A stretch of DNA of 64,000 nucleotides from assembly GCA_034231615.1 (NCBI GenBank), contig CM067298.1:3415834-3479833 (forward strand), read 5' to 3'. Shown here in pieces: positions 7,770-62,937 of the stretch. A program made the position numbers and the translations under genes. The notes beneath the pieces were generated by a model, which made no database searches, had not been told where the DNA came from, and saw nothing but the letters and a program-made list of their open reading frames with translations. This DNA comes from Meghimatium bilineatum (lineage: Eukaryota; Mollusca; Gastropoda; Stylommatophora; Philomycidae). The first letter of the stretch is position 1; every line of letters begins with the position of its first letter.

Positions 7770-8283
7770 CATTCTTCTTCTTCTTGTTCAGAGTTTGACA
7801 TGTCTACACAGCAAGTTCTGCTTCCCTAATAAATGCTGCTGTATTTGAAAGCTTCTCAATGCTCCCATACATCTTTCTGTGGATATCCATCTCTGTGGAC
7901 CAGTGTTCTTCCCTTAACTGGTTTAGTGTACTGCAGTCTTGCAGGATATGTTCAGTGGTCTGTGCTGCCTGCCCACAAGGACACGGTGGTGATGGGACTA
8001 ATCTTAGCCTATTTAAGTGGCTGTTTAATCTGTTGTGTCCTGTTCTGAGGCCGAAGATAATAACCTGCTCTGCTCTGTCGAGATAGTGGTAATTGTCTTT
8101 TGGGTGAATAGACAATAGCTTTGATGAGGGTCTTCTTTTCTTGTTAGGTGATTTCTTGGTCTTTTTGTTCCTGTGTTGCTCCATCCTTTGCCAGTCTGTC
8201 TGCCTCTTCATTTCCTGGTATGCCACAGTGGGGGGTGGTATCCACTGTAGTACTACCCTTCTTTGGATGCTCACTTCTCGCAT
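7770..8283 (-). pseudogene. LINE RNase H/C-terminal fragment, 5'-truncated
   Basis: The minus-strand frame has RAEQVIIFGLRTGHNRLNSH, then CPCGQAAQTTEHILQDCS (a Cys-His knuckle-like tail) and a C-terminus ending EAELAV. This matches the last segment of the LINE at 42338, which has MNRSEQVIILRLRTGHNRL and CTCGQAVQSAKHILQEC. Upstream, the RNase H end PHCGIPGNEEADRLAK lies in a neighbouring frame, so at least two frameshifts are present. The 3' end is GACATGTCAAACTCTGAA plus (GAA)n at 7772-7790. Confidence 0.8.
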
Positions 8284-12858: not shown

Positions 12859-13365
12859 TATGCAATGACATCGGTCTAGATTTATCATAATCAAACAGGG
12901 ATATTTTCTGAAATAATGCAAGCGCACTACAAACTCGTCTACTTGCACACACATCCTGCACATAGAAATTAATCTGTGCCAAGAAAGTTCTGAGACATGA
13001 GACCAATCAAACAAGAAAGCACTACGAATATCAACTTTGTGAATACCAAGTATTTGGAATTTTGTTTTTTGTACTCGTGGAATACTGCAGGAAATGTTGG
13101 GTTTACAAAAAGGCAATTTTACAGGTGTTGAATTATGTCATAGAACATTGTTGCAAGCATTTAACTTGTGTTGTTACATCATATCATGCGTCATCCTGGC
13201 AGCGGAAGTGAGCTGTAATAGTTGTCTCTCCATAGCCTTGGTAGTGCACTGTGATAAACTGTAGTCTTTCACTTTGGTGATGTTTCCTTTGCACTGAAAT
13301 CGCCACTTCCTACTCGAAATCTTCAACTTACCCTCCAGTATGGTCTTAGACCGAATAGTATTTCT
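12859..13365. other. Intergenic, no gene seen
   Basis: No recognised repeat or coding signature. Confidence 0.5.
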
Positions 13366-14355
13366 TTATAACGTGTCTAAAATACGTTGTTTGTCTTGTT
13401 ATAACGTGTCTAAAATACGTTGTTTGTCTTGTTATAACGTGTCTAAAATACGTTGTTTGTCTTGTTATAACGTGTCTAAAATACGTTGTTTGTCTTGTTA
13501 TAACGTGTCTAAAATACGTTGTTTGTCTTGTTATAACGTGTCTAAAATACGTTGTTTGTCTTGTTATAACGTGTCTAAAATACGTTGTTTGTCTTGTTAT
13601 AACGTGTCTAAAATACGTTGTTTGTCTTGTTATAACGTGTCTAAAATACGTTGTTTGTCTTGTTATAACGTGTCTAAAATACGTTGTTTGTCTTGTTATA
13701 ACGTGTCTAAAATACGTTGTTTGTCTTGTTATAACGTGTCTAAAATGCGTTGTTTGTCTTGTTATAACGTGTCTAAAATACGTTGTTTGTCTTGTTATAA
13801 CGTGTCTAAAATATGTTGTTTGTCTTGTTATAACGTGTCTAAAATACGTTGTTTGTCTTGTTATAACGTGTCTAAAATATGTTGCTTGTCTTGTTATAAC
13901 GTGTCTAAAATACGTTGTTGGTCTTGTTATAACGTGTCTAAAATACGTTGTTTGTCTTGTTATAACGTGTCTAAAATATGTTGTTTGTCTTGTTATAACG
14001 TGTCTAAAATACGTTGTTTGTCTTGTTATAACGTGTCTAAAATATGTTGTTTGTCTTGTTATAACGTGTCTAAAATATGTTGTTTGTCTTGTTATAACGT
14101 GTCTAAAATACGTTGTTTGTCTTGTTATAACGTGTCTAAAATACGTTGTTTGTCTTGTTATAACGTGTCTAAAATACGTTGTTTGTCTTGTTATAACGTG
14201 TCTAAAATACGTTGTTTGTCTTGTTATAACGTGTCTAAAATACATTGTTTGTCTTGTTATAACGTGTCTAAAATATTTCGTTTTTCTTGTTATAACGTGT
14301 CTAAAATATGTTGTTCGTCTTGTTATAACGTGTCTAAAATATGTTGTTTGTCTTG
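13366..14355. repeat. 33-bp minisatellite, 30 units
   Basis: The unit starts TTATAACGTGTCTAAAATAC and ends GTTGTTTGTCTTG. The array measures 990 bp, exactly 30 units without a length change; variation is limited to point substitutions. Frames are open on both strands (YNVSKIRCLSC per unit on plus), consistent with unit length rather than coding. Confidence 0.97.
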
Positions 14356-14361
14356 TTATGG

Positions 14362-14456
14362 GTGTCACATTAGGACATTACTCGCCCGTGTTGTAGGGGT
14401 GTCACATTGAGACATAACTCGTGCGTGTTGTAGGGGTGTCACGTTGAGACATCTGG
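14362..14456. repeat. 37-bp repeat, about 2.5 units
   Basis: The unit contains GTGTTGTAGGGGTGTCAC and follows the 33-bp array. Confidence 0.85.
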
Positions 14457-25200: not shown

Positions 25201-26865
25201 TCAAATATTAGCCCTGGTCTGCCACAGGGATCGTCTCATCTCCTGTACTTTTCAATATATACACAGTACATATCGCTGGCAATTAAATCACAGGTGTTGG
25301 CAGAACGATGTCATATGCCGATGATATCCTGGTGTATAGACAGGGCAGAAATCGAGAAGAGTACGTCGTGGAACTACAGAAGGAGCTGGACAGACTTGAC
25401 AAATTGGTGTCGAGATACGGGAGCAGTGGTTAATCCGTCTAAGGCATTCGTGACGTGGTTTTCCATGAACAATCACATGGTAAAGACACCCATGCCACAA
25501 GTTTCGTTGTCCGGGAAAAGTTTAGAAAGAACAAGCACGATTAGATACCTGGGTATGTTTTTTGACAGAATTCTGGGTTTCAGGGAACATGTTGACCACA
25601 TTATCATAATGGCAGGCAAAGGCGTAGCAGCGATGAAGGTTACGGCTGCTGCGCAGTGTGAGCAGATGTTGTTATTTCTATTGTACCAAGATTTGGTTGT
25701 GGCTGTGGTGGAATATGCACTTGCAATTCTGACTTTTAGCCAAACTCAGATCGAAAGACTGGATAGAGTCCAGAATGCAGCAATACGTATCATTCTGGGA
25801 TGTACAAGAGACACATCGACAAGAGCTATGCGATACCTACTTGACTGCCCAACAGCTGAGCATAGATTACAGTATTGCCGTGCACAGGCGTACCTTCAAA
25901 TATATGCAGATAAGGAACACCCGTTGCATTCCGAAATACAGAAAGTTAAAGGCAGCAGACTCAAGAGAGGAAGGTCGTGGATGGGACGTGCTGAGGATGT
26001 CATACAAAGCGTATGCAGATTGCAGGATGTGGCAGTAGGTGCAGAATGGATAAGTCTACCCACAGATTTCGAAACTTGTTTGAGAGTAGTAATATCACTT
26101 AGCAGGGAATGCAGAGAATGGTGTCCCACAGCTGTTTAGAAAGAAGTGCAGGCTTTGGTCAGTGAGAATACCAAAGAGTTGGATGTGATTATATACACTG
26201 ATGGATCTGTGATTAGGCAAGGTTCGCAGTGCTTGGGCCTTCACAGCTCAGTGTGCAGGTAAAACGATCAAGGAGGAGAGTGGTGCCTTTGCGGTCACTA
26301 CGAGTAGTATGACCATGGAGACTATGGCGGTGACCAGGGCATTTGAGTGGCTACTCACACAGAAGGTAACGCAGGTCTGCATCTTGAGTGACTCTATGAG
26401 TATGATTAAAAAGGTACAAGTGGGTATCGTTCGCGAACAGTGGATTGAGGTCTTGAGAAAGGCGAGCCTGAAAGTGGTTACATTTATTTTCGTGTCGGGA
26501 CATGTGGGCGTTCGAGGCAATGAAAGAGCGGATCAACTGGCATCATACGCGATTGTGGCACAGGACGATGGGGCAATAGATCGCGCTGACTATTTGAATT
26601 CCTTAAGAGATATAACACGCGAGAGTGAGACTAATGTGGATGATGATTCCTTTTTAATGGCCAGGATTAAAGATCAGGGATTGAAATTCGGTGTTGCTAG
26701 AAATGAACATTTTGATTGGCGCAGAAGAATGATGGTCAACCAGCATAGGACCGGTACTGTCAGAAGAAGTGTAATGGCGGATACACTCAAGGAGAGATCG
26801 GAGCAACTATGGACGTGTCCAGTTTGCAGTGATGATGATCCGGCGACTAACTAACTAACTAACAG
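25201..26865 (+). pseudogene. LINE RT-RNase H fragment inserted in a 20-bp array
   Basis: The RT palm is recognisable: YADDILVY at 25314-25337, with frameshifts before 25294 and near 25395. The thumb follows (YLGMFFDRILGFREHVDHI, then LDRVQNAAIRIILG). An RNase H domain starts IIYTDGS at about 26188 and, after a frameshift, runs through TSSMTMETMAVTRAFEWL, ILSDSMSM and GHVGVRGNERADQLA. The C-terminal tail is NQHRTGTVRRSV..WTCPVC. The copy ends in (TAAC)n at 26850-26863. It lacks the endonuclease and the 5' half of RT. Array sequence on both sides marks insertion into the repeat. Confidence 0.85.
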
Positions 26866-42017: not shown

Positions 42018-42337
42018 TATTGAATCATCTTTCCTCTCGCTTTATATCCCTTTATTGAATCATCTTACATTCCTCTCGCTTTATATCCCTTTATTGAATC
42101 ATCTTTCCTCTCGCTTTATACTCCTTTATTGAATCATCTTACTTTCCTCTCGCTTTATATCCCTTTATTGAATCATCTTACTTTCCTCTCGCTTTATATC
42201 CCTTTATTGAATCATCTTACTTTCCTCTCGCTTTATATCCCTTTATTGAATCATCTTACTTTCCTCTCGCTTTATATCCCTTTATTGAATCATCTTACTT
42301 TCCTCTCGCTTTATATCCCTTTATTAAATCATCTTAC
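42018..42337. repeat. 39-bp minisatellite, left part (about 8 units)
   Basis: The unit starts TGAATCATCTTACTTTCCTC. The last partial unit ends AATCATCTTAC (42327-42337), which is repeated at 46385-46395 as the LINE's target duplication. Confidence 0.97.
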
Positions 42338-42411
42338 CCCATCAAGGCCAGCACCGTGCAGTGGTGATGGGGCTTAGTTCAGCCATCAGGGGCTGGAAAC
42401 TAAGACTGGTC
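42338..42411 (+). ncRNA. HDV-like self-cleaving ribozyme candidate at the LINE 5' terminus
   Basis: The nested double pseudoknot order can be drawn by eye. P1: CCCATCA (42338-42344) with TGATGGG (42365-42371). P2: GGCCAG (42346-42351) with CTGGTC (42406-42411, one G-U). P3: CAC with GTG (42352-54/42361-63), or ACC with GGT. P4: TTCAGCC (42378-84) with GGCTGGAA (42391-98, one bulge). The joining strand CTAAGA starts at C42400, the position of the catalytic cytosine in this class. Cleavage would fall exactly at the element's first base. R2, RTE, L1Tc and other LINEs are known to start this way. Confidence 0.6.
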
Positions 42412-42490
42412 GGGCAGTCCCATTCGAGCAGGACCATAGTCCTGCCCAAGTAAGCAGAGTGCTGAAGACGGAGGCATTCAGATAATCAGG

Positions 42491-45274
42491 ATGCCACGCA
42501 CAAAACACAATGGAAACATGTCTACATCTATAAAAAGTTATGGTGCCTGCTCTGTGGCGGACGTTCAGGCAGGGACGGTGCCGGGCCCTATACCTCGAAA
42601 GGGCCCAACCTCAGTTACTGAAAGTCCTTCTCAATTTCCTCGAGGAGCCAGGAGGCAAGGGAATAGAGCTACTGGTCAAACAAACAAACGACCAATAAAA
42701 ATAATGCACTGGAATGCTGAGAGTGTCAACAGTAAAAGAGATGGAAACAGCAAAAAATTGGAATTTGAAAATGTCCTCAGTGAAGAACAAGTTAATATAT
42801 GCTGTATCCAAGAAACACATCTCAGCAGCGACATAGCCTTCAAAATCAGAGGCTACCAGTGCTACCGATCTGATCGAAAGGACAGGCGAAAGGGTGGAAT
42901 TCTGACACTTGTTAAAAACAATATCAGCGCATGTCAGCTGGAAGTATATATGGAAGGGGCAGAATACCAGATGCTCCACCTAAAAACAGACAGTGCAGAA
43001 TTCCATCTCCTGAACTACTACTGCCCAAATGATAAACCATTGGCACTAGACACAATTCCAGATAAAGAGAGACTTATGGTGTGTGGTGACTTCAACAGCC
43101 ACTCTCAGAGCTGGGGCTACGATCATATCGACAAGAGAGGTGAGGAACTTGAGAGCTGGCAGGATGAAAATAATCTCATCCTTATTAACCAGCCAATAGA
43201 CTCACCAACATTCTACTCGAGAGCATGGCACACCACCTCTACACCAGACCTGGCATTCCACTCACCAGGCCTGGAATGGAACATCACACGTGGCGTTGGA
43301 AAGCAGCTTGGGGGTAGTGACCACAGACCAGTATTTCTGGAAATCCACAATGAATTTACCAAGGACAGCAGCACGCTCACTAGGTGGAACTATAAGAGGG
43401 CAGACTGGAAAATGTACCAGCATTTAACCAGTGTTCTAGCTAAGGACACGAACTTGGACAAAGACATCAATAGAGCAGTGAGTGAATTTAATAGATGTAT
43501 ACTACATGCTGCTAGTAAAACCATACCCAGGGGGGCTCGCAAAAACTACAAACCCTACTGGAATGATGAACTGGAAAAGCTGCAAAATGAGATGGAAACA
43601 TCTAGACAGCAGGCTGAGAACAGACCTAGCCAAGAACATCACAACAAATATCAGCAAACAAAGGCTAAATTTCAAAGAGCCAAGTTACAAGCCAGACGGA
43701 GCAGCTGGAAAGAAAAAACAGAGTCGCTGAACCTAGAAAGAGATGCTAGGAAATTATGGAAAATTGTAAAACAACTAAATGATGAAGGTACAGGGAGAAA
43801 TACCAGGATCACACTTTATAAAGATAGAAACATTTTAACAGGTAAACATGCACCTGATTATTTTGCAGATTCCTTTGCAGAAGACAATAACGTCAAAGTC
43901 AGCCCAGACAAACAACAGGAGGTTCGAGAGAACCAGCAAAACATTGGACAAGGCGAACCTATACCTGAAGTCATGGAGGCACCAATCACAATGAGAGAAC
44001 TGGAGCATGCAATATCCAAATTGAAAATGAAAAAGTCCCCTAGAGCTGATGGAGTGTCCAATGAAATGATTAGAAACCTGGGAATTGCAGCAAGAGCAAA
44101 GCTACTGCAGATCTTTAACACAAGCTGGTCCACAGGTAATGTACCACAGGCGTGGAGAGAAGCAATAATGATACCACTCCTCAAATCAGGAAAAGATGGC
44201 AACACAGTCTCCAACTACAGGCCCATCAGCCTCACAAGCTGTCTATGCAAAACAATGGAACGCATTATCAATCTTAGGATGCAGTGGTACCTAGAAAGTG
44301 AAAACCTTCTGGTATCACAACAAGCAGGTTTCAGACAGTGCTACTCTACTGAAGATCAGGCAACCTACCTCTCCCAAGAGATTGAGGATGCCTTCCAAGA
44401 AAATAAACTGGTACTAGCAACATGGATAGATCTCAGGAAAGCATTTGATAAGGTCTGGAAAGAAGGGCCCCTAAAGAAATTGCGAAATTGCAGGGTTAGC
44501 TCAAGAATGTACAAATGGGTAAAAGCATACCTGCATAATAGAAGAGCCAGGGTACAATTAGATGGTCGCAAGAGCAAGAAAGTTCTACTGCGTCATGGAG
44601 TCCCCCAAGGAGGAGTCCTGTCACCCACACTTTTCTTGGTTTACATCAATGACCTAGTTGCTGAACTACCACATGGGATCAAAGTGGCAATGTATGCTGA
44701 CGACCTGGTGATCTGGTGCACGGAAGAACATGCGACAGTGGCCACTAAACAAATACAAAGAGCTATCGATGCTCTAACCTTATGGGCAAATAGATGGTGC
44801 GTCAGCATTAACACAGATAAGTGCAGCACTACACTCTTTACCCTCTCACCAAAACAAAACGCCGGTCATATCAAGATAGACGGAGAGCTCTTGAAAGAAG
44901 ACAAACAACCCACATACCTCGGAGTTACTTTTGATGATAAGCTGACATGGAAGCAGCACATAAACAAAACAACAACAAAAGCCAGGAGGAAGTTAGCTAT
45001 CCTGAGAAAACTAAGTGGAACCACATGGGGAGCCAGTGGGAATATACTCAGTAAAGTTTACCAGCAAGGTATAAGACCACACCTGGAATATCGTTCAGCT
45101 GTATGGTGTTCTGCATCAAACACCACATTACAAGATCTAGATAAAGTGCAAAACCAGGTACTTAGAATAATGTTGGGAGCAATGAAATCAACACCCATAG
45201 CAGAGATGCAGAAAATGGGAAGAATGCAAACACTTGGCGAACGCAGAGACACAAAAGTACTAATTCGGGCATGA
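42491..45274 (+). CDS. LINE endonuclease-reverse transcriptase
   Basis: A 927-codon frame, the longest in the window. Residues 1-69 have no recognised domain. Residues 70-285 form an APE-type endonuclease: HWNAESVNSK, QETHL (107-111), GDFNSHS (199-205) and SDHRPV (276-281) supply the metal and catalytic residues that nick target DNA. Residues of about 500-790 are the RT: YRPISLTSCLCKTMERIIN, QQAGFRQ, DLRKAFDKVW, GVPQGGVLSPTLF, YADD (735-738), YLGVTFDDKLTWKQHI. The thumb ends near MLGAMKSTPIAEM. The start follows a 153-nt UTR and suits the truncation-free 5' end. The stop at 45272 is premature, because RNase H sequence continues downstream in another frame. Confidence 0.92.
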   Translation: MPRTKHNGNMSTSIKSYGACSVADVQAGTVPGPIPRKGPTSVTESPSQFPRGARRQGNRATGQTNKRPIKIMHWNAESVNSKRDGNSKKLEFENVLSEEQVNICCIQETHLSSDIAFKIRGYQCYRSDRKDRRKGGILTLVKNNISACQLEVYMEGAEYQMLHLKTDSAEFHLLNYYCPNDKPLALDTIPDKERLMVCGDFNSHSQSWGYDHIDKRGEELESWQDENNLILINQPIDSPTFYSRAWHTTSTPDLAFHSPGLEWNITRGVGKQLGGSDHRPVFLEIHNEFTKDSSTLTRWNYKRADWKMYQHLTSVLAKDTNLDKDINRAVSEFNRCILHAASKTIPRGARKNYKPYWNDELEKLQNEMETSRQQAENRPSQEHHNKYQQTKAKFQRAKLQARRSSWKEKTESLNLERDARKLWKIVKQLNDEGTGRNTRITLYKDRNILTGKHAPDYFADSFAEDNNVKVSPDKQQEVRENQQNIGQGEPIPEVMEAPITMRELEHAISKLKMKKSPRADGVSNEMIRNLGIAARAKLLQIFNTSWSTGNVPQAWREAIMIPLLKSGKDGNTVSNYRPISLTSCLCKTMERIINLRMQWYLESENLLVSQQAGFRQCYSTEDQATYLSQEIEDAFQENKLVLATWIDLRKAFDKVWKEGPLKKLRNCRVSSRMYKWVKAYLHNRRARVQLDGRKSKKVLLRHGVPQGGVLSPTLFLVYINDLVAELPHGIKVAMYADDLVIWCTEEHATVATKQIQRAIDALTLWANRWCVSINTDKCSTTLFTLSPKQNAGHIKIDGELLKEDKQPTYLGVTFDDKLTWKQHINKTTTKARRKLAILRKLSGTTWGASGNILSKVYQQGIRPHLEYRSAVWCSASNTTLQDLDKVQNQVLRIMLGAMKSTPIAEMQKMGRMQTLGERRDTKVLIRA

Positions 45275-46347
45275 AAAGTTTCAGTGTATGCCAAGTCATC
45301 CAATGAAGGAAAGATTCCAAAATCTAGCAATGGGGTGACTGAAAAGAAGCAGCTTTATCCATCAAGCTAAACGACTCCGCAGACAACTTACCGACCTACC
45401 TGAAGTTGACAGCCCCTTAAGGCATGTACCAGAACAAACCCCGTGGAGTGAAAGGCATGGAATGCCAATGTACATTCAGACCCACGTGAAAGGAATACTA
45501 AGCGAGGACGAACAGAACAGTGTGCAGCGAAGGACAGTCACCCTCAGTTACCTGGATGAGGAATATCCACAAGATATATGGGTCAGAGTATACACAGATG
45601 GGTCAGCACAGAATGCCGTGAGGAATGGAGGTGCAGGTGTATATATAGAATATCCACACAAGCCTAGAGATACAATCAGAACACCGACAGGAAAATTCTG
45701 CAATAATTATGATGCAGAAATCCAGGCAATTACTGTGGCAGCTAAAAAAACTGCTGAACTCCAACTCTGACCTACAGCCTGTGGTATTCCTGACAGATGC
45801 AAGGTCAGTGCTTCAAGCTCTCCAGTCTGGAAAACTAACAGACTTAAAAAAAACTACTTAGCGAATTGTCTTACCAGTATAGGGTAACCATGCAGTGGAT
45901 ACCCTCTCACTGTGGAATACCAGGAAATGAAAAAGCAGACCAACTGGCTAAGGAAGGTGCTGCCGAAGACCAACCAGATATACCAATCACCTACCATCAT
46001 AAAAAAAACAGATGATAAAGTCAATAAGAAAGCCACAAACAACAACACAAGATGACTATCACATTATGAACAGATCAGAACAAGTTATAATTCTACGTCT
46101 CAGAACAGGACACAACCGACTCCGCAGTCACATGTATACAATGTTCAAGATTGGCAACATAGCCATGTGTACATGTGGACAGGCAGTACAGAGTGCCAAA
46201 CATATACTTCAAGAGTGTTCTGAGCATGAAACGATGAGGCAGACATATTGGCCAGAAGAAACAACACTGGAATCAAAACTCTATGGGACACTGTATGAAC
46301 TACAAAAGACAGTGAGTTTTATTAAGGAGAGAGAATTACAGATATAG
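45275..46347 (+). pseudogene. LINE RNase H and Cys-His tail, frameshifted
   Basis: Continues the LINE protein in several frames. 45462-45770 holds the first RNase H motifs, VYTDGSAQN (Asp) and YDAEIQAI (Glu). A stop and shift follow; FLTDARSVLQAL (Asp) and WIPSHCGIPGNEKADQLAK (45893-45950) complete the fold in other frames. 46012-46347 encodes MNRSEQVIILRLRTGHNRL and the CTCGQAVQSAKHILQEC tail, ending at 46347. RNase H removes the RNA from the hybrid. At least three lesions mean this copy cannot make the full protein. Confidence 0.88.
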
Positions 46348-46384
46348 ACATGTTTCAAGTGAACAGAAGAAGAAGAAGAAGAAG

Positions 46385-46535
46385 AATCATCTTACTTTCC
46401 TCTCCCTTTATATCCCTTTATTGAATCATCTTACTTTCCTCTCGCTTTATATCCCTTTATTGAATCATCTTACTTTCCTCTCGCTTTATATCCCTTTATT
46501 GAATCATCTTACTTTCCTCTCGCTATATACCCCTT
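46385..46535. repeat. 39-bp minisatellite, right part (about 4 units)
   Basis: Same unit as 42018-42337, resuming with the duplicated AATCATCTTAC. Confidence 0.97.
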
Positions 46536-46544
46536 TATGTCTTG

Positions 46545-46690
46545 CAGCGTCAGGAATAGAAGAGTTCTGGACAATGCTTTTTGTGTGCTTCATTTATGTT
46601 TGTTTTCATGGGCTCTTTTATTTCTTTTATTCAACTTTTGCACGGTCTGCCCCTGGCTTCGTATCTCAATGTATCAAATTGTAACCCGTG
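46545..46690 (-). mobile_element. Possible LINE 3' scrap
   Basis: GCGTCAGGAATAGAAGAGTT resembles GCGTCAGGGGTAGAAGAGTT at 50350, the tail end of another LINE family. Confidence 0.4.
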
Positions 46691-61610: not shown

Positions 61611-62271
61611 TTTAAATAACATCTACAACAGTGGCTATATTCCATTAGATATGCTACAATCAATTTTCATAGCCCTACCAAAGAAACCTGGTGCAGTAGA
61701 TTGTGAAGATCACAGAACAATTAGTCTTATGAGTCCGATGACCTAGATTCTACTGTGCATTATAATGAGGCGTATAAAAGGAAAAATAAAACCAGAGATA
61801 GCAGAAGAACAATGCAGATTCGTAGAAGGAAAAGGAACAAGAAATGCCCTATATATAGTAAGAACATTAATGGAGAGGGATAGAAGTACAACAAGACCTT
61901 TATCTGTGCTTCATAGATTACAGCAAAGCATTTGACAAGGTGAAGCGTTCAGAGATGATAAAACTGCTAGAAAATCTGAACGTTAAAAGGAAAGATCTAA
62001 GAATAGAAACAAATATATATTGGAACCAAACGGCTGCGTTGAGAGTTAACAACACTGTAGGAATGTTTCAAAAGATAGAAATGTCTCCAGATCTTTTCTC
62101 CCTGTATACAGAATACATTACGAGAAGTATAGAAGATATGTCAGGAATAAAAGTGGGAGGATGCAATATAAATAACTTGAGATATGCTGATGACACAGTA
62201 TTGATCACAGGAAGCGAACAGGAACTACAAGTCCTATTAGATAAAGTAGTGAAGGAAAGTGAAAACAAAGG
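61611..62271 (+). pseudogene. LINE RT (RTE-like), left part, interrupted
   Basis: Fingers and palm of a non-LTR RT: NNIYNSGYIPLDMLQSIFIA, LPKKPGAVDCEDHRTISLMS, ILLCIIMRRIKGKIKPEIAE, EQCRFVEGKGTRNALYIVRT, then from 61940 KRSEMIKLLENLNVKRKDLR, IYWNQTAALRVNN and LRYADDTVLI (YADD 62183-62194). The sequence breaks at VVKESENKG, where another LINE is inserted. A short deletion removed the conserved 'G-V-R-Q-G-C' block between FQKIEMS and PDLFSLYTEY. No RNase H belongs to this element. Confidence 0.85.
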
Positions 62272-62937
62272 CTTTGAAAAGTCAAAGGGAAAACGAAACA
62301 AGCGTGGCAGAACATGGATGGCAGAAGCTGAAAACACACTGCGAATAGTATGTGAGTTAGAAGAAATAGGAAAGGGCAGTGAATGGGTGGAGGTAGACAC
62401 TGAGAAGAAATCACTGACTAAAGTAATAATACAACTAGATAAAGCATGTCGAAAATGGACAGCAGTCAGGGCTCAGGATACAGTGCACGAACACGCCCAA
62501 CTACACTCGAAACCACAAGACATAATTATATACACAGATGGCTCTGTTAGCAGAAACACAAATAAAAGTGGTTGGGGTTTTGCTGCCTACAGAAACGGTG
62601 TGAAGTTGGTTGAGAAATCTTCAGCATATTCTACTGTCACATCGAGCATGAGAATGGAGATGCAGGAAGATTTAATAAAGGCAGTAATAAATTCATTTCA
62701 AGATGCAGATGATGTCAATGAGGTTGAGAACGTACACATACAGAGAATGTTAGAAATGGGAGTATCAGAGGTGAGGGAAGGAAAAGTAAATTTTTTGGAA
62801 AGTCCCGAAGATCACACAATCAACACCTGACCGGAACTATGAGTCTACATACACTAGGATGGCTGCTGGAGCTGAGGGTGGAGCACTTATGGGAATGTCC
62901 CGCATGCTGTGAAGCCAGTTTCTAATCAAGAATCAAT
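62272..62937 (+). mobile_element. Nested LINE RNase H fragment, internally deleted
   Basis: Inserted in the RT above with a 12-bp duplication TGAAAACAAAGG (62260-62271 and 62938-62949). It encodes GRTWMAEAENTLRIVCELEE, DKACRKWTAV, IIIYTDGSVSRNTNKSGWGF and VTSSMRMEM, then jumps to EDLIKAVINSFQDADDVNEV. Compared with 60396-61160, about 230 bp covering the second half of RNase H are missing. The reading frame stays open through host RT and insert from 61940 to 62830 by chance. It ends GAAGCCAGTTTCTAATCAAG. Confidence 0.88.

Follow-up and report, generated by a model that had tools for sequence, protein, structure and literature searches.

The question raised by this locus is how a LINE inserted in the window, the whole 64,000-nucleotide stretch analysed here, comes to have a defined first base. 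A sequence-only reading had placed an HDV-like ribozyme at that base, and this proposal is supported by the geometry of the motif, its insertion-defined position, the C that occupies the catalytic position in 55 of 55 copies, and the conservation profile. Judged from these features, the first 75 nt of the LINE very probably form an HDV-like double pseudoknot that would cut between 42336 and 42337.

The element and its flanking duplications were located as follows.

42337..46384, forward strand: LINE copy with both ends, comprising an endonuclease-reverse transcriptase ORF, a degraded RNase H region and a tail of (GAA)n
42491..45274, forward strand: endonuclease and reverse transcriptase ORF, 927 aa in the window copy (Pfam)
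45462..45770, forward strand: RNase H fragment, with a whole RNase H match seen in copy L055
42327..42336, forward strand: 5' target duplication AATCATCTTA, ambiguous, the flank being a 39-bp tandem array
46385..46394, forward strand: 3' target duplication AATCATCTTA, from the duplication search at the element's ends

In the less damaged copy L055, matches to Exo_endo_phos (9-215), RVT_1 (507-751) and RNase_H (968-1093) lie in one frame, which gives the domain order AP endonuclease, reverse transcriptase (RT) and RNase H in a single protein. Many other copies of the family have their RT within open frames of about 1305 aa. When the 1.61-Gb genome was queried with the RT, 150 places were scored from 52,762 first-look candidates, all of them with an E value of 3.8e-168 or better and an identity of 98-100%. 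The exact 75-mer of the motif occurs in 196 copies genome-wide, and its reversed control in none. The LINE family has very many members, is young and is in a recent burst; the 196 exact copies indicate recent amplification with the motif intact and do not speak to its function. Among the best 60 of 129 matches in a PDB search, LINE-1 ORF2 ranked at the top, followed by R2, other reverse transcriptases and retroviral RNase H; these matches are uninformative on the clade of the LINE. In a search of genome contigs and viral contigs for relatives of the LINE, none was confirmed. The host genome is that of an animal, as wnt (PF00110), a domain not known outside animals, matches it at 65 places and matches 0 of 14 control genomes.

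Older related LINE families are present in the genome, with relatives roughly 64-78% identical to the window LINE. In L035 (1113-1382 and 5700-6000) a copy of the window LINE is inserted into an older relative, about 71% identical, for which 39 further places were scored at 73-81% identity. L049 holds a relative of the LINE's 5' UTR. Within the window itself, an old fragment on the minus strand at 7772-8259 is about 64% identical to the LINE's 3' part, and a further ORF fragment with RT and RNase H domains (Pfam RVT_1, RNase_H) lies at 61940-62830. A weak tblastn match to the C-terminal part of the RT (24% identity) at 25216-25839 is perhaps a LINE remnant, and an ORF of 356 aa at 13340-14410 has a weak LRR_Zer-1 match.

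The 5' end had been set at 42338 on the basis of an 11-bp duplication, which proved to be off by one. The repeat of the window copy, AATCATCTTAC, also belongs to a 39-bp tandem unit that flanks the element on both sides (window 42018-42336 and 46385-46577), so that this duplication cannot fix the 5' end alone; the last C of the repeat may belong either to the duplication or to the element. Among 20 copies covered at both ends, 16 are flanked by exact duplications of at least 10 nt. Twelve of these end immediately 5' of CCCC, three, including that of the window copy, reach one base into the first C, and one (L041) leaves one extra base. Non-exact cases were L040 (11 nt, one mismatch) and L047 (13 nt, one mismatch), while L039 has only 6 nt exact and L046 nothing convincing. 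The 20-copy count was made without L031, whose 3' end lies beyond its stretch, and the rearranged L044. Where automated scoring favoured a longer inexact match, as in L037 and in L045 (second copy), the exact duplication was counted. The first position is a C in 53 of 55 aligned copies. From the duplications in the 20 copies and this C, the element therefore starts at 42337. The flanks of the copies examined look mutually unrelated.

All helices of the HDV-like fold, previously drawn in order by eye, are present in the sequence. Their registers stood in part: P1, P3 and P4 had to be re-read from 42337, with the following result.

42337..42411, forward strand: candidate HDV-like ribozyme, with the cut predicted at 42336/42337
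42337..42343, forward strand: P1 5' strand CCCCATC (descriptor, pair table)
42344..42345, forward strand: J1/2 spacer AA, GA in 26 of 55 copies
42346..42351, forward strand: P2 5' strand GGCCAG, GACCAG in 5 of 55 copies
42353..42355, forward strand: P3 5' strand ACC (descriptor, pair table)
42356..42362, forward strand: L3 loop of 7 nt, differing between subfamilies and including the possible P1.1 bases A42360 and G42361
42363..42365, forward strand: P3 3' strand GGT (descriptor, pair table)
42366..42372, forward strand: P1 3' strand GATGGGG (descriptor, pair table)
42373..42377, forward strand: J1.1/4 CTTAG, with a possible P1.1 of C42373-G42361 and T42374-A42360
42378..42397, forward strand: P4 hairpin TTCAGCC-ATCAGG-GGCTGGA (descriptor, pair table)
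42398..42405, forward strand: J4/2 AACTAAGA, with the candidate catalytic C at 42400
42406..42411, forward strand: P2 3' strand CTGGTC (descriptor, pair table)

P1, given earlier as CCCATCA/TGATGGG, is indeed present, and its register becomes CCCCATC/GATGGGG with a 2-nt spacer AA. P3 is read as ACC/GGT instead of CAC/GTG, and P4 forms 7 bp without a bulge, one of them a G-U (TTCAGCC/GGCTGGA). Counted from 42337, the parts have the usual sizes, with 7 bp for P1, 2 nt for the spacer, 6 bp for P2, 3 bp for P3 and 7 bp for P4. For one studied HDV-like ribozyme, the spacer-less form is reported to have no activity and the form with a 1-nt spacer little (PMC4908430). Since the register from 42338 leaves a 1-nt spacer between P1 and P2, these activity data favour 42337, and the cleavage point would be at the first base of P1. 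The C noted in CTAAGA at the catalytic position is found in 55 of 55 aligned copies, and by its position C42400 would be the catalytic C. The columns of the possible P1.1 (A42360-T42374 and G42361-C42373) are kept in 55, 55, 53 and 54 of 55 copies, too constant for a test based on changes.

Conservation was assessed on 55 aligned copies, which represent 28 distinct rows; cells are not independent, as subfamily changes are shared. Thirty of the loci (L001-L030) were retrieved with the 5' 163 nt as query, and truncated copies thus fall outside the sample. A 56th copy, L068, with an inverted P4, was kept apart from the alignment, the pair table, the segment shuffles and the region counts. Its P4 segment (L068:954-1029, minus strand) is the reverse complement of the usual one and J1.1/4 is lost, which looks like a hairpin inversion. 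Other copies had been named as the place where a broken P1 or P2 or a missing C would show; in the 28 distinct rows, pairing is retained in 97.4% of pair cells, and the C is invariant across the 55 copies. Broken pairs are seen in single copies, most commonly at P1 pair 5 (5 of 28 rows), three of these five rows coming from loci pattern-picked for a change there. When partners were slid by one to three columns, only 27-52% of cells were paired against 97.4%, a control that favours any structure drawn on one of these rows.

The regional counts come from L072-L091, a set of 20 older copies that are the closest relatives of L069 across 155 nt; L069-L071, picked by a pattern requiring a change at P1 pair 5 and an intact P3, do not enter these counts. 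Relative to the window row, 1 of 260 cells was changed in the core joins and 22 of 920 in the helices, compared with 66 of 320 in the other loops and 77 of 1000 downstream. With the majority of the set as reference, so that shared subfamily changes drop out, helices (22/920) and joins (1/260) are still less variable than the downstream sequence (57/1000), and the loops (21/320) are not different from it. The 3' strand of P4 is the weak helix, with 10 of 140 cells changed, about the downstream variability, in part through a G-U/A-U change that keeps the pair. By this regional profile, the motif is conserved as a ribozyme would be.

Covariation is essentially absent, because the readable copies are close relatives. 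One cell is changed on both sides, a number equalled in 176 of 500 shuffles, and it lies in P4 of L069, whose P1 has a G-G mismatch. A genome-wide pattern with P1 pair 5 changed on both sides gave 7 matches, against 21 for the reversed control; 3 of the 7 are in this LINE family, and none of the 3 pairs at that position. A second variant pattern of P1 and spacer had one match, at the L069 place, and one in the control; a third had 32 matches and 5 in the control. Among the 14 listed of these 32, 11 look like family copies in which bases were changed or inserted. The other three of the 14 lie within 0.2 Mb on C8 (8124895, 8211151 and 8316839); they match the 5' half of the motif, are nearly identical to one another and are more diverged.

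The same 5' end could be an ordinary structured 5' UTR, in which the P1 hairpin, an inner stem and an extended P4 act as a binding, packaging or translation signal without catalysis. Nested folding of the window copy gives this structure as its energy minimum, and in five of six other copies folded (two identical) P1 and the extended P4 recur with a shorter inner stem. At -30.9 kcal/mol, computed without pseudoknots, it compares with -21.6 for the nested part of the ribozyme and -7.4 for P2 alone; the energies are close and do not choose between the folds. Its extended P4 (CTTAGT/ACTAAG below P4) is kept in 98.8% of cells, and since CTTAG/CTAAG are the same conserved bases as in the core joins, conservation cannot separate the folds there. 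The two folds differ in the remaining parts. The inner stem of the nested fold is only 89.8% paired, with one pair missing from 15 of the 28 rows, below the P2 (98.2%) and P3 (98.8%) of the ribozyme over the same 28 rows, and the 3' strand of P2, unpaired in the nested fold, has 0 of 120 cells changed in the 20 older copies. A structured UTR also leaves unexplained why ordered HDV parts with the right spacers lie at the first base, and we regard it as unlikely.

The segments CTTAG at 42373-42377 and CTAAG at 42400-42404 are perfect complements and nearly invariant. Their pairing as an extension of P4 could hide the catalytic C, a possible off state.

Less probable still, and in our view very unlikely, is an internal RNA polymerase II promoter starting at the first C, with conservation acting at the DNA level and the fold a by-product or a dead relic. 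Pr77 of L1Tc is described as an internal promoter and a ribozyme in one stretch, and its CGTG promoter element, located at +25 to +28, is conserved in most trypanosomatid Pr77 (PMC4748587); the window LINE has AGTG at +24 to +27. A promoter, however, needs no complementarity in P1, P2 and P4, and within the segment the helices vary less than the loops.

A pseudoknot descriptor of the HDV-like fold, written after the finding was known, matched the 64-kb window on both strands only at 42337 and in the overlapping 42338 register. Of the one-strand shuffles of the window, a set of 15 gave no site and a set of 200 gave 2, and the first base of the shuffled 75-mer gave 0 in 200,000; these shuffle figures are somewhat generous because the descriptor postdates the finding. 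The HDV-like fold is rarer than chance. Chance resemblance is hardly credible, for although a descriptor of this kind sometimes matches shuffled sequence, the motif falls on the single position where a ribozyme is expected, segment shuffles never reproduced it and its parts are conserved.

HDV-type Rfam models gave no match at the gathering threshold, and a permissive search up to E 10 gave none on the LINE's strand; the sole match in that search was drz-agam-1, on the wrong strand (15.1 bits, E 1.6). In general fold the motif resembles drz-agam-1 and the other HDV-type families of Rfam; the difference from them is the lack of a match at the gathering level.

Among LINEs, R2 and L1Tc are the established bearers of an HDV-like ribozyme at the 5' end, and R4, Dong, baggins and L1Tc are named as elements that cleave there (PMC3774820). 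Self-cleavage at or near the 5' junction is the likeness to R2, R4, Dong and Baggins, described for those elements (PMC3774820) and predicted here. R2 differs in its site-specific insertion and in borrowing 28S sequence for P1 in many species, whereas P1 here lies wholly inside the element. Self-cleavage had been noted as not known for this EN-RT-RNase H family; the surprise shrinks, since L1Tc itself is described as encoding endonuclease, RT and RNase H (PMC4035085) and several gastropods are reported to be rich in Ingi elements, though the word ribozyme is absent from the main text of that paper (PMC11203168).

The closest resemblance is to the L1Tc/ingi ribozyme (Pr77, L1TcRz), likewise an HDV-like double pseudoknot in the first ~77 nt of an EN-RT-RNase H LINE. 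Trypanosomatid ribozymes are said to differ from those of R2 and HDV by the GC orientation in P1 (PMC4035085). C residues lie on the 5' strand of P1 in both, with CCCC at 42337-42340 here and CCCTGGC at the start of the published Pr77 primer (PMC4748587). In both, short internally deleted derivatives keep the motif (PMC4035085). The host is a trypanosomatid there and an animal here, the sequence of P1 differs, and the CGTG of Pr77 near +25 is replaced by AGTG in the window LINE. Likened by P1, domain order and derivatives rather than by an RT tree, the motif is likely an animal cousin of the ingi-type ribozyme, and a common origin with the L1Tc/ingi ribozyme is possible. In a literature search of a limited library, none of the matches listed described a ribozyme of this kind for an ingi-type LINE of an animal, and one may still be in print.

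Eight short derivatives were found in 7 of 20 stretches (L033, L034, L036, L041, L043, L045 and L047). They join the first 174-532 nt of the LINE to its last 58-169 nt, with seven different BLAST end pairs, and all eight keep the motif and the LINE's 3' end. Seven sit within exact duplications of 11-12 nt and the remaining one within 13 nt with a mismatch. Retention of the 5' part follows from the construction of the search, which is not the case for the 3' end and the duplications. NARTc and RIME are described as short derivatives that keep the ribozyme of L1Tc and ingi (PMC4035085), and internal deletions that keep a ribozyme 5' end and a 3' end also characterize the R2 SIDEs (PMC3414825); here the form is instead eight derivatives with seven end pairs in 7 of 20 stretches.

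On the preferred reading, the RNA of the first 75 nt would fold into the HDV-like double pseudoknot and cleave between 42336 and 42337. A transcript started upstream in the host, with host read-through as its presumed source, would be trimmed to begin at the first C of the element, and reverse transcription of the trimmed RNA would give the same 5' end at every new insertion. Derivatives that retain the motif would mature by the same cleavage.

The motif most likely represents a new animal case of HDV-like ribozymes at LINE 5' ends, a class that explains how exact RNA ends arise from longer transcripts. Present Rfam models, as the searches suggest, may miss the type whose P1 begins with C. If the ribozyme is real, the mechanism would not be limited to trypanosomatids within EN-RT-RNase H LINEs, and the animal case would be an abundant and recently amplified one. 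It is conceivable, though we lean slightly against it, that the ingi-type LINE ribozyme predates the split between trypanosomatids and animals, or moved with the element, and makes the 5' ends of animal ingi-type LINEs and of their short derivatives. With its many near-identical copies and short derivatives, the family would offer a system for the study of such ribozymes.
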